Source: Deltaproteobacteria bacterium
GTDB taxonomy: Bacteria > Desulfobacterota > Syntrophia > Syntrophales > UBA6807
Direction of reading: 5' to 3'
NCBI GenBank assembly: GCA_011056835.1
Contig: DSDU01000055.1
Coordinates: 1 to 38,008 of the forward strand
DNA: 38,008 nt
Shown here: positions 29,557 through 33,589 of the stretch, in pieces
How the letters are laid out: every line of letters starts with the position of its first letter
Numbering within the stretch: position 1 is the first letter of the stretch
Position numbers and translations under genes: made by a program
Notes under the pieces: generated by a model
The model's input: the letters and a program-made list of their open reading frames with translations, nothing else
Database searches by the model: none
Told to the model about the DNA's origin: nothing

Positions 29557-29585
29557 TTGACGTTCTACGCCGGCTTTCCTATACT
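29557..29585 (+). promoter_or_regulatory. Sigma70-like promoter of the MORN operon
   Basis: TTGACG (29557-29562) and TATACT (29580-29585) are separated by exactly 17 bases. Transcription would begin near 29592, about 40 bases before the first start codon. AAAGGGGA at 29604-29611 is the only purine-rich site but lies over 20 bases before the ATG. Confidence 0.7.
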
Positions 29586-29631: not shown

Positions 29632-32600
29632 ATGCTGATTCGCGATTCACACGATGAGATACGATACAGAGTAACCTTGAACGAGCAGGACTTCCAGGGA
29701 AGCGGTACGTTCATCTGGCCCGACGGCAGTCGTTACGAGGGCAAATTCATCAAAGGATTTATTCACGGAAAAGGTATTTTTACGTGGCCTGATGGAAGCA
29801 GTTACAATGGTGAATGGAACAAGAACCTTCCAAACGGAGAAGGTGTTTTTACCTGGCCCGACGGGAGTTACTGCAAGGGGGTGTGGGATCAAGGAAAGGC
29901 AACACCCGATGAAGACATCATACAGGCCGAGAAGGCGGCGCGATTGAAGGCTGCGGAAGAAGCACGGATCAAGGAAGAAGAAACTCAAAAGAAGGTAGAG
30001 GAGGCCAGAAGAAAAACCGAGGAAATGGCCCGAAAAATTGCCGAGGAAGAAGCCCGGCTGAAGGCCCAAGAAGAGGAACTCAAGAAGAAAACGGAAGAAG
30101 CCAGACGACGCATCGAAGAGACGGCACGTAAAGTTGCTGAGGAGGAAGCACGACTTCAAGCGGAAGAAGAAGCGCTGAAGAAAAAGGCGGAGGAGGCTCG
30201 TCGTAAAGCAGAGGAAGCCGCCAGAAAAATTGCCGAAGAGGAGGCCAGACTCAGAGACGAAGAAGAAGCGCGAGAGAAAGCAGAAGGAAGCAGAAGAAAA
30301 ACCGAGGAAATGGCCCGAAAAATTGCCGAGGAAGAAGCCCGGCTGAAGGCCCAAGAAGAGGAACTCAAGAAGAAAACGGAAGAAGCCAGACGACGCGTCG
30401 AAGAGACGGCACGTAAAGTTGCTGAGGAGGAAGTACGACTTCAAGCGGAAGAAGAGGCGCTGAAGAAAAAGGCGGAGGAGGCTCGTCGTAAAGCAGAGGA
30501 AGCCGCCAGAGAAATTGCCGAAGAGGAGGCCAGACTCAGAGACGAAGAAGATATGCTGCGACAGCAGATTGAGCAGAAAAAACAGAAGACTGAAGAAACC
30601 GCCAGGATACTCGCCGAGGAAGAAGCACGACTTCAAGCGGAAGAAGAAGCGCTGAGGGAAAAAGCTGAAGAAGCTCGGCACAAAGCCCAGGAAACGGCTC
30701 GCAGGATTGCTGAGGAGGAGGCCAGACTCAGGGCTGAAGAGGAAGCAAGCAAGAAAGCCGAAGAAGAGTTCAGGATAAAAATTGAGGAATCCAGGAAAAA
30801 AACGGAAGAAACAGCTATCAAAATGGCTGAAAAAGAAGCCCGCCTTAAGGCTGAGGAAGGATATTTGAGAATAAAGGCTGACGAAGCACGGCAACGCGCC
30901 GAGGAAACGGCGCGGAGGCTGGCTGAGGAAGAAGCACGGCTCAGGGCTGAACGGGATGCCATTCGAACAGCGGAAGAGGAGCTCAGAAATCGAACAGCAG
31001 ACGCACGGCAACAAGCCGAACAGGCAGCCCGAGAAATTGCTGCGAAAGAAGCCATGCTGAGGGCCGAAGAAGAGGAACTCAAAAGGATAACCGATGAAGC
31101 AAGAGTAAAAGCCGAGCAAGATGCGGTGAAGAAGCAGGAAGAAGGGGCACGGCTGAAAGCCGAAGAGGAAGAGCTGAAGAAGAAGGCCGATGAAGCACGG
31201 AAGCGCGCCGAAGAAACGGCACGAAGGCTCGCCGAAGAAGAAACAAGGCTCAGAGCTGAGGAAGAAGCCAGACAACAGGCTGAAAAAGAACTGGAACAGC
31301 GGGCCGAAGAAGCAAGGAGAATGGCTGAAGAGACAGGCCGAAGGATGGCTGAACGCGAAGCCCAACTCAAGATAGACGAAGAAGAGCTGAAGAAGAAGGC
31401 CGATGAAGCACGGAAGCGCGCCGAAGAAACGGCACGAAGGCTCGCCGAAGAAGAAGCCAGACTCCGAGAAGAAGAGGAAACGAGAAAAAAAGCAGAAGAA
31501 GAATTGAAACAGCGCGTTGAAGATGCCCGATACCGTGCCGAAGAAGCAGCCAGACAACTGGAGGAAGAAGAAGCCAGATTCAAAGCTGAAGAAGTCGCTT
31601 TGAGGGGAAAAGCAGAAGAAGCGCGGCAGCGTGCTGAAGAAACCGCCCGAAGGCTGGCGGAAGAAGAAATAAAGATCAAGGCCGAAGAAAATGCATGGAA
31701 GATTGCCGAGGAAGAATTAATAAAACGGGCTGAAGATGCTCGGAAAAGAACGGAAATTGCCGCTAAAAGACTGGCTCAGGAAGAAGCAAACCTTAAGGCG
31801 GAGGAATCCGGGAGATCGTTATCCGGCGTAGGACACATCACAACGGTGACGGCATCTGAAGAAGCAATACAACGAACCGAGAAAGCGGCCAGACAACTTG
31901 CCGAAGAAGAAGCACGTCTCAAGGCTGAAGAGGAAGAATTACAAAACCGCAAGGAAGAAGCGCGGAGGAGGGCCGAAGATGCGGCCGGCAGGATCGCCGA
32001 AGAAGAAGCCAGGCTTAAGGAGGAGGAGGCTGCCAGCCAAAAGGCGGAAGAAGAATTAAAAAAACGTATCGCGGATACGAGGCGGCGAACCGAAGAGGCA
32101 GCACGGAGAATCGCCGAGGAAGATGCCCGGTCACATGCCGAGGAAGAGGAATTGCGAAAACGGGCGGATGAAGCACGAAGAAGGGCCGACGATGCAACCC
32201 GAAGACTGGTTGACGAGGAAGCTCGCCTCATGGCCGAAGAAGACGATTCGAGGAAACGAACCGAAGCCCTCGGATCAAAAAAGGAAGAAAAACAACTGCC
32301 CGCCGATCAGGAAGCGATCGAAATATCAGATGGACATGGATCAAAAGCATATTCCGATGGCAGCGTATACACAGGCGAACTTGTTGATGGACTGCCTGAG
32401 GGTCAGGGAATCATGAACTACAGTAATGGGAACAAATATGCAGGGGAATGGAAAAAGGGAATCCGGGAGGGTCATGGCATACTCACATTATCAGATGGTT
32501 CACGGTATGTAGGCCAGTGGAAAGCCGACAAAAAGAACGGGAATGGTACCGTCACAACATCGGACGGTACAAAATATACCGGTGACTGGGAAAATGATTA

Positions 32601-32982
32601 TCGTCACGGACAGGGAACGGAAACATTTGCCGATGGAATGAAATACAGCGGTCAATACAAGGGCGGAAAATTTAACGGCCAGGGCACGCTCATATTGCCC
32701 GATGGGAGAAAATATACCGGGGAATTCGAAAACTATCAGTTCAACGGAAAGGGAGCGCTTCATTTTCCGAACGGGGACCGGTATGAAGGAGAATTTAAAA
32801 ATAACGAATACCATGGCCAGGGAACAATGACCATGACAGACGGGCGAAAGTACACGGGCCAGTTTGAAAACGGCCTCCCTCACGGATGGGGCGTGATGGA
32901 ATTTACCAGCGGCAAAAGAAATGTTGGTGAATTCAAGAACGGCAAATATGTGGGGAAAACCGAGGGAGGGCGTTATGAGTAA
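29632..32982 (+). CDS. Giant MORN / coiled-coil / MORN protein
   Basis: A 1116-residue protein with no signal peptide or membrane helix, so probably cytoplasmic. Three 23-residue MORN repeats (about 22-92; FIWPDGSRYEGKF, FTWPDGSSYNGEW) precede a charged Glu/Ala/Arg/Lys coil (about 98-885). The coil consists of about 22 units beginning ARxxAEEEARL, mostly exactly 32 or 39 residues long, with a Gly/Ser/Thr hinge near 727-745. Nine further MORN repeats occupy 900-1106. MORN repeats bind membranes or other proteins in eukaryotes; bacterial roles are largely unknown. A fully helical coil of about 780 residues would span over 100 nm, suggesting a spacer, filament or scaffold with binding heads at both ends. 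ATG 29632 is the only start available; the ribosome binding site is poorly spaced. It overlaps the next gene by eight bases. Confidence 0.88.
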   Translation: MLIRDSHDEIRYRVTLNEQDFQGSGTFIWPDGSRYEGKFIKGFIHGKGIFTWPDGSSYNGEWNKNLPNGEGVFTWPDGSYCKGVWDQGKATPDEDIIQAEKAARLKAAEEARIKEEETQKKVEEARRKTEEMARKIAEEEARLKAQEEELKKKTEEARRRIEETARKVAEEEARLQAEEEALKKKAEEARRKAEEAARKIAEEEARLRDEEEAREKAEGSRRKTEEMARKIAEEEARLKAQEEELKKKTEEARRRVEETARKVAEEEVRLQAEEEALKKKAEEARRKAEEAAREIAEEEARLRDEEDMLRQQIEQKKQKTEETARILAEEEARLQAEEEALREKAEEARHKAQETARRIAEEEARLRAEEEASKKAEEEFRIKIEESRKKTEETAIKMAEKEARLKAEEGYLRIKADEARQRAEETARRLAEEEARLRAERDAIRTAEEELRNRTADARQQAEQAAREIAAKEAMLRAEEEELKRITDEARVKAEQDAVKKQEEGARLKAEEEELKKKADEARKRAEETARRLAEEETRLRAEEEARQQAEKELEQRAEEARRMAEETGRRMAEREAQLKIDEEELKKKADEARKRAEETARRLAEEEARLREEEETRKKAEEELKQRVEDARYRAEEAARQLEEEEARFKAEEVALRGKAEEARQRAEETARRLAEEEIKIKAEENAWKIAEEELIKRAEDARKRTEIAAKRLAQEEANLKAEESGRSLSGVGHITTVTASEEAIQRTEKAARQLAEEEARLKAEEEELQNRKEEARRRAEDAAGRIAEEEARLKEEEAASQKAEEELKKRIADTRRRTEEAARRIAEEDARSHAEEEELRKRADEARRRADDATRRLVDEEARLMAEEDDSRKRTEALGSKKEEKQLPADQEAIEISDGHGSKAYSDGSVYTGELVDGLPEGQGIMNYSNGNKYAGEWKKGIREGHGILTLSDGSRYVGQWKADKKNGNGTVTTSDGTKYTGDWENDYRHGQGTETFADGMKYSGQYKGGKFNGQGTLILPDGRKYTGEFENYQFNGKGALHFPNGDRYEGEFKNNEYHGQGTMTMTDGRKYTGQFENGLPHGWGVMEFTSGKRNVGEFKNGKYVGKTEGGRYE
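30007..30265 (+). repeat. Tandem duplication within the coil, copy 1
   Basis: 259 bases nearly identical to 30292-30550 (I count four differences). The offset is 285 bases, or 95 codons: three coil units of 32, 32 and 31 residues. The reading frame is kept. Confidence 0.85.
30292..30550 (+). repeat. Tandem duplication within the coil, copy 2
   Basis: Second copy of 30007-30265. Differences seen are one base each in an Ile/Val, Ala/Val, Glu/Glu and Lys/Glu codon, so the duplication is recent compared with the other units. Confidence 0.85.
31168..31242 (+). repeat. 75-base identical repeat in the coil, copy 1
   Basis: Identical to 31381-31455, offset 213 bases (71 codons, one 39-residue plus one 32-residue unit). 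A second, separate duplication event or gene-conversion tract. Confidence 0.8.
31381..31455 (+). repeat. 75-base identical repeat in the coil, copy 2
   Basis: Identical to 31168-31242. It encodes the EELKKKADEARKRAEET and ARRLAEEE segments. Confidence 0.8.
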
Positions 32983-33589
32983 AAAATCGCCGCTTCAACA
33001 GTCATTTCGTGATACATACGGACAGAGAGCTGTCGACTTTCAATGGAGTGAAACATCATTGGATAGTGAGGGATCACGTGTTTATCCAAGCGGGGCGAGA
33101 TATAACGGCTTCTTTAAGGCGGGATTATTTCAAGGAAAAGGAACATTCACCTGGCCGGATGGAAGTCGCTACGATGGCGAATGGGAAAACGGACTGCCTC
33201 ACGGGGCGGGCACAATGCTTCTGGCCGATGGGTACAGATACGAAGGAACATGGACAAACGGCAGCGCCGATGGCAAGGGCCAGGAAACCCTTCCCGATGG
33301 CGGACGATATCGAGGACAATGGAAAAACGGATTGAAAAACGGAAAAGGTGAGATGGTTTCAGCCGATGGTACCAAATATGGCGGAGACTGGAAAGACGGG
33401 ATATCCCATGGAAGGGGCATACTCATATTTTCAGACGGCTCCAAATATCAGGGAATCTGGAAAGAGGGCTATATGTTCGGTGAGGGTATCCTGACATCAA
33501 CCGATGGGAAAAGCTACCGGGGCACATGGAAAGACGGCAGGTTTAACATTATATCCGAAGTCGGCAAATCAACCGCCGCTGAGGGCTGA
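32975..33589 (+). CDS. MORN-repeat protein
   Basis: A 204-residue protein made of a polar N-terminal segment of about 48 residues and seven 23-residue MORN repeats (for example GTFTWPDGSRYDGEWENGLP) up to near the C-terminus. It has no signal peptide or membrane segment. ATG 32975 has GAGGGAGGG five bases upstream; it overlaps the end of the giant MORN gene by eight bases, so the two are translationally coupled. An earlier in-frame ATG at 32921 lies inside that gene without a site. Its repeats resemble the N-terminal three of the large protein (shared FTWPDGS), suggesting a common origin and perhaps joint assembly. Function unknown. Confidence 0.87.
   Translation: MSKKSPLQQSFRDTYGQRAVDFQWSETSLDSEGSRVYPSGARYNGFFKAGLFQGKGTFTWPDGSRYDGEWENGLPHGAGTMLLADGYRYEGTWTNGSADGKGQETLPDGGRYRGQWKNGLKNGKGEMVSADGTKYGGDWKDGISHGRGILIFSDGSKYQGIWKEGYMFGEGILTSTDGKSYRGTWKDGRFNIISEVGKSTAAEG

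Follow-up and report, generated by a model that had tools for sequence, protein, structure and literature searches.

An apparently undescribed two-gene MORN cassette with two repeat heads and a variable charged linker in anaerobic bacteria

Introduction

MORN repeats are common in bacteria, and to our knowledge almost nothing is known of their role there. Junctophilins, which end in a membrane anchor, join a MORN array to a long helical segment. The MORN1 proteins of trypanosomes and apicomplexans (PMC7725318; structures 6t4r, 6t68, 6t6q and 6t4d) are long uninterrupted MORN arrays of the eukaryotic cytoskeleton, and MORN4/retinophilin uses its array as a binding groove for myosin III (6jle). 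Here we describe a two-gene MORN cassette from contig DSDU01000055.1 of a Deltaproteobacteria bacterium (assembly GCA_011056835.1; 38,008 nucleotides), referred to as the window. The first gene (the long gene) encodes a MORN head, a long charged linker and a second MORN head, while the second (the partner gene) encodes MORN repeats only.

The heads share the fold of MORN1. However, MORN1 proteins have MORN repeats only, and lack the linker, the second head and the linked partner gene. Junctophilins, which were found among the structural matches (7rw4, 7rxe and 9uo9), have a different domain order and no separated pair of N- and C-terminal heads. MORN4 is a single short MORN protein with a eukaryotic target and without a spacer, but its groove offers a possible model for heads that would grip a helix.

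Results

The cassette and its conservation

The cassette of the window consists of the following features:

29632..32982, + strand: long gene, 1116 amino acids (aa), ATG start; MORN head, linker, MORN head; layout shared with 20 other complete copies
29632..29907, + strand: N-head, aa 1-92; a short N-terminal segment, then 3 MORN repeats
29908..32337, + strand: charged linker, aa 93-902; 27% Glu, 25% Lys/Arg, 19% Ala; 32- and 39-residue units
32338..32958, + strand: C-head, aa 903-1109; 9 MORN repeats
32975..33589, + strand: partner gene, all-MORN protein of 204 aa; overlaps the long gene by 8 bp

We observed that this two-gene cassette is conserved, with the heads and the partner kept as a unit and under purifying selection. 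MORN proteins were present in 23 of 41 related genomes, and the survey of the order (probably Syntrophales, anaerobic bacteria) covered 155 genomes. A partner profile (E < 1e-75) recovered 29 orthologues in 27 of them; genome G027, whose intact 210-aa partner had been scored in two pieces, was added, giving 30 copies in 28 genomes (G, C and L numbers are our labels for genomes, contigs and loci). All 30 partner copies lie directly 3' of a C-head on the same strand (one contig begins inside the C-head), and the order head-linker-head-partner was identical in all 21 copies that have the whole long gene on one contig. The check proposed in the earlier note, a search for homologues with the same MORN-coil-MORN order, yielded the architecture together with its linked partner in 21 complete copies, which come from many of the order's families. 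In 20 complete pairs the two genes were separated by -62 to +50 nt (first-start open reading frames). In the L027 long gene just two C-terminal MORN repeats were visible. The other nine long genes run into a contig end or lie near one, as is expected for repetitive coil DNA in draft assemblies; in L022 the reading frame was also broken near its end.

In within-genus pairs the C-head had a ratio of nonsynonymous to synonymous substitution rates (dN/dS) of 0.07-0.14, the partner one of 0.07-0.15 and the N-head one of 0.20-0.42; for the linker it was 0.11-0.41, a rough value as repeats align ambiguously. When the window was compared with lineages having other linker types (L019, L021 and L023), identity was 54-55% in the C-head and 43-48% in the partner, against 26-30% in the linker (26% for L019 and L023). 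Twenty C-head positions were kept in one repeat beyond the MORN consensus, and individual repeats therefore carry constraints of their own. A chance low-complexity reading frame was considered and rejected, given the conserved architecture and the purifying selection. The 636-aa antisense frame opposite the coil (29647-31557, - strand) mirrors the repetitive coil and is an effect of its repetitive codons.

Beyond the order, 395 genomes of the phylum gave one match at E < 1e-45, a lone MORN protein without a linker. When 84,980 species genomes were scanned with a peptide pattern, three relatives emerged; JAFGQS010000054.1 ('Deltaproteobacteria bacterium'), which is among them, is apparently the same contig as G002:C32. 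This sampling was centred on genomes of the order and the phylum, and the layout could occur in unsampled phyla.

In four genomes the long gene is apparently split over two contigs (G024 C105/C14, G040 C118/C48, G007 C255/C177 and G033 C54/C31). The contig ends lie in or near the long gene in these cases; draft assemblies will miss or truncate the cassette. Locus L050 (2385-4865, G102:C247) is a second cassette copy with an apparently truncated partner of 120 aa. A relic, L035 (5134-6135, G039), has a short coil and an 8-repeat C-head, with neither an N-head nor an adjacent partner gene.

The MORN heads and the partner protein

PF02493 was the sole Pfam family found in the long protein (whole-protein E = 3.7e-60). 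Single repeats scored 22-35 bits, and the protein passed the Pfam cut-off for tandem 23-residue MORN repeats. A profile made from the window's own repeats placed three at aa 21-80 and nine at aa 913-1109, and AlphaFold2 predicted MORN-type beta-hairpin arrays at aa 22-86 and 903-1109. In these models, and by Foldseek matches to MORN1, each repeat forms a beta-hairpin within an elongated single array. The model was built from an alignment of two sequences, with a predicted local distance difference test score (pLDDT) mostly of 82-93 in the C-head, 69-86 in the N-head and mostly 55-79 in the coil. By sequence, the best match of the C-head in the PDB was trypanosome MORN1 (6t4r, E 8e-41).

The earlier note, made from the DNA alone, had read this gene as three MORN repeats, about 780 residues of coil and nine MORN repeats, and the repeat profile, Pfam and AlphaFold2 all agree with that layout, with 8-9 repeats in the C-head. 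Its coil length was close, with 765 residues predicted as helical in a linker of ~810. It had also seen no signal or membrane segment, and we likewise found no transmembrane segment (the top 19-residue Kyte-Doolittle mean was 0.31) and no signal peptide-like segment in the long protein, whose N-terminus is charged. With no segment above that mean, the C-terminal membrane anchor of junctophilins is lacking. The promoter assigned to the gene in the note (TTGACG-17-TATACT, 29557-29585) did not hold up: it is one of six promoter-like sites, where shuffled sequences had 4.8 +/- 2.3, and is thus not significant.

The coupled partner that the note had mentioned is indeed a second MORN gene, in a conserved pair. 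Its conserved start is the ATG at 32975, and its product matched the Pfam MORN family with E 1.2e-38. The partner model (pLDDT 82) matched MORN1 first, followed by radial-spoke proteins, junctophilins and MORN4; MORN1 structures were the best PDB match by structure (E 5e-19, TM 0.73). The N-head, including its non-repeat start, aligned collinearly with partner residues 1-~100 (hhalign probability 99.9%, E 3.7e-34), and the two genes are therefore paralogues. Read from its sequence, the long protein is a partner-like beginning followed by a linker and a second MORN array, with an N-head that is collinear with its paralogue, the partner, but truncated. Consisting of MORN repeats only, as MORN1-type proteins do, would describe the partner alone and not the long protein with its linker of ~810 residues.

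The linker of the window protein

The linker contains the following features:

29911..30282, + strand: linker helix 1, aa 94-217 (AlphaFold2 model)
30006..30551, + strand: recent tandem duplication, 285-bp/95-aa unit x 1.9 with 98% matches (Tandem Repeats Finder)
30319..31821, + strand: linker helix 2, aa 230-730, with a hydrophobic seam of period 3.545 (AlphaFold2 model)
31822..31845, + strand: predicted hinge or break near SGVGHITT, aa 731-738, which the model shows as non-helical and with low pLDDT
31846..32265, + strand: linker helix 3, aa 739-878 (AlphaFold2 model)

AlphaFold2 thus interrupts the coil at aa 218-229 and 731-738, and a non-helical stretch follows it at aa 879-902. The 32- and 39-residue units, the 98% identical 285-bp duplication and the hydrophobic seam indicate that the linker is not chance sequence.

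The hydrophobic periodicity of the linker was 3.545 (power 26-29), and the residues Ile, Leu, Val, Met and Phe made up 24-36% of one face and 0-11% elsewhere. A seam of this kind, close to the left-handed period of 3.5, marks a coiled coil. The salt-bridge index was 0.37 of that of EEEEKKK (shuffled 0.18), yet the clear seam is not that of a single alpha-helix; with such a period, the window linker is better read as a shallow left-handed coiled coil than as a single helix. Judged from its periodicity, it probably pairs in this way, over a contour of ~115 nm. The root-mean-square end-to-end distance for this contour would be ~55 nm as a single helix and ~100 nm as a dimeric coiled coil (with persistence lengths of ~15 nm for a single alpha-helix (PMC5347031) and of 150 nm, an assumed value, for a coiled coil). 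No solved structure resembled the linker at 1e-6.

Linker variation across relatives

Complete linkers spanned 87-1297 residues, the shortest (87) being in L026. Five linker types were called, on the basis of sequence periodicity and a model of low depth:

Type 1: 32/39-residue Glu/Arg/Ala units (the window, L020, L042-L044, L022)
Type 2: 46-residue Ala-rich units (L021, L045-L050)
Type 3: 67/68-residue classical coiled coil (L019, L054)
Type 4: AEEEARRK-form octads, in which a hydrophobic seam is absent or slight (L025, L027, L034, L051, L053, L056 and others)
Type 5: Pro/Glu-rich, about 20% Pro and 24% Glu (L023, L024; genus g7, genomes G008 and G027)

The period of 3.53-3.56 recurred in linkers with 32/39-, 46- and 67/68-aa repeats; a shared period despite differing repeat lengths is what a left-handed coiled coil predicts. 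The octad linkers L025, L051 and L056 had a salt-bridge index of 0.56-0.61 and no seam, as in a single alpha-helix. The Pro/Glu-rich linkers of genus g7 are, by composition, probably non-helical. As relatives' linkers resemble a single helix or a Pro/Glu chain, stiffness is not the shared requirement.

Mapped on the partner tree, the linker types needed 10 changes (minimum 8; shuffled labels 18.9). They track partner clades with few changes, i.e. they were inherited with the cassette, yet were replaced several times. Within one genus, the linkers of G101 and G102 differ by 92 aa, which is exactly 2 x 46-aa units. This difference, along with the 98% identical duplication in the window, indicates that the linker grows by tandem duplication.

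In every complete copy the spacer has 87 residues or more, is Glu-rich and contains few bulky hydrophobics. What stays constant is the pair of MORN heads with a long charged spacer between them, and not a coil of fixed length. The note had proposed two heads held apart by a rod that could exceed 100 nm. The heads with a spacer recur in all 21 copies, while a set length or stiffness does not, given the range of lengths and the Pro/Glu-rich linkers of g7.

Genomic context

The window neighbours encode an aminoacyl-tRNA editing protein, an exo/endonuclease, a cold-shock protein, a SurA-like isomerase, a CsgG-like protein and RibF. A function drawn from neighbours was rejected, as the genes are unrelated in each genome. 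A component of anti-phage defence was also rejected, with no match among PADLOC models. As for a phage origin, PHROG 7324 and 20 IMG/VR loci encode MORN proteins, and none has the long-linker two-head layout. The long viral MORN arrays at the IMG/VR loci L059, L060 and L061 reach 18 repeats, and two of these loci have at least two adjacent MORN genes (PHROG 7324).

A separate MORN family was seen in L038 (4698-5879, G000:C36) and L037 (1061-1972, G001). Its start resembles a signal peptide (MRTAIALFLVIIVFVPC...), with a Cys pair after it, and there are about 10 repeats. The family is probably exported, and its neighbours are conserved in both genomes.

Discussion

Proposed function and its alternatives

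We propose that the cassette is a cytoplasmic MORN tether or scaffold, a reading to which we give an even chance. The heads and the partner may be modules for protein-protein contacts. They may dimerise with one another, in the end-to-end manner of MORN1 proteins, or hold a helix in the MORN groove in the way that MORN4 holds the Myo3a tail. The linker would be a soluble, non-sticky spacer that keeps the two binding sites some tens of nanometres from each other, so that one molecule could bridge two partners at a variable distance, and the partner protein could compete for or complete one end of the tether. Such a spacer would need length and solubility; stiffness and an exact length are not common to all copies. 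A more specific version is tentative and, we think, somewhat doubtful: a lineage-specific cytoplasmic scaffold in which the heads and the paralogous partner would form a cross-linked network, with a mesh set by the fast-evolving spacer length and a spacer material swapped several times while the heads stayed unchanged.

By analogy, the heads would bind proteins and not membranes, because MORN1 dimerises without liposome binding, MORN4 grips a myosin tail, and no copy has a basic N-head (net charge 0 to -10, mostly acidic). Many partners are acidic too. TbMORN1, the best-studied MORN-only protein, is a dimerisation module that showed no binding to liposomes, MORN4 binds the Myo3a tail through its groove, and MORN repeats are not to be assumed lipid-binding without experiment (PMC7725318). 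The tether between membrane or nucleoid sites suggested in the note finds no support. A membrane tether, in which one or both heads would bind phospholipid and the linker would reach from the inner membrane into the cytoplasm as proposed for junctophilins, could draw on the MORN region and long helix that junctophilins pair at membrane contacts, on their place among the fold matches, and on the phosphatidylethanolamine that co-purified with TbMORN1 from E. coli (PMC7725318). Against these stand the charge of the heads and partners, the liposome result and the lack of a transmembrane anchor, and we regard it as quite improbable. A network or filament formed by head-to-head pairing is possible, and the membrane tether ranks as less likely. 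A self-assembling filament, where the partner or C-head would bind along the linker helix or the heads would join tail to tail into a cytoskeletal bundle or lattice, seems unlikely to us, though two MORN heads and a MORN partner provide enough valency and the window linker has a coiled-coil seam. MORN1 proteins dimerise via the C-terminus and may build larger assemblies, and a segment of the Myo3a tail does bind in the groove of MORN4 (PMC7725318). However, linker sequence, length and structural type are unconserved, and Pro/Glu-rich in two genomes, which means that no specific groove-on-linker contact can hold for all copies.

It is also conceivable, if improbable, that the linker is a low-complexity expansion without a role of its own and that the MORN heads alone matter. 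Its highly variable length and type, its growth via tandem duplication and the 87-residue linker of L026 would fit such drift. On the other hand, no complete copy has lost the Glu-rich spacer low in bulky hydrophobics, and the within-genus linker dN/dS of 0.11-0.41, rough as it is with repeat alignment, indicates that the linker is under constraint.

Returning to the tether or scaffold, several observations weigh against it. The cassette is missing from about four-fifths of the order's genomes and is therefore dispensable. The pLDDT of the coil is moderate and comes from a two-sequence alignment. No functional gene was found conserved beside the cassette; neighbours differ between genomes and are mostly ordinary or housekeeping genes. 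A flagellar role was rejected, as flagellin showed no association (14 of 28 cassette genomes vs 50 of 126 others, p = 0.40). Bactofilin was present in 19 of 28 cassette genomes vs 109 of 126 others, a weak inverse relation that is hard to interpret; its p = 0.025 ignores phylogeny and the number of tests, and it was not used as evidence.

Comparison with known systems

Relatives' AEEEARRK octads share with single alpha-helices (ER/K) and de novo AEEEXXX helices (PMC5347031, PMC5812594) dense i,i+4 salt bridges and the absence of a seam. The window linker, in contrast, has its seam and fits a coiled coil better, and the lengths are far above the usual 40-200 residues of such spacers. Two NCBIfam models gave weak linker matches to the TolA central domain (E 1e-15 and 3.6e-12), both under the curated cut-off (57.7 bits vs 213; 46.2 vs 59.45), because the linker is an Ala/Glu/Lys-rich helix. 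The long protein has neither the N-terminal transmembrane helix nor the C-terminal domain of TolA, and is cytoplasmic.

In agreement with the note, the literature searched contained no described bacterial system with the two-MORN-head, long-linker layout, including in connection with Syntrophus aciditrophicus. Periscope proteins (PMC8201768) have a conserved binding part placed at a variable distance by changes in repeat number. The likeness is by analogy only, as these are surface-exposed repeat domains of streptococci, with no homology to the cassette. Set beside these systems, what is new is apparently a recurrent, undescribed two-gene MORN cassette in about a fifth of the order. As a defined unit whose heads are conserved, whose partner is matched and whose spacers form a natural series in length and material, it makes it possible to ask, with small expressed proteins, whether MORN proteins form structures in bacteria and whether the length or stiffness of a spacer matters. 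Should the cassette prove to be a scaffold, syntrophic anaerobes would have a cytoskeleton-like element of a distinct kind.

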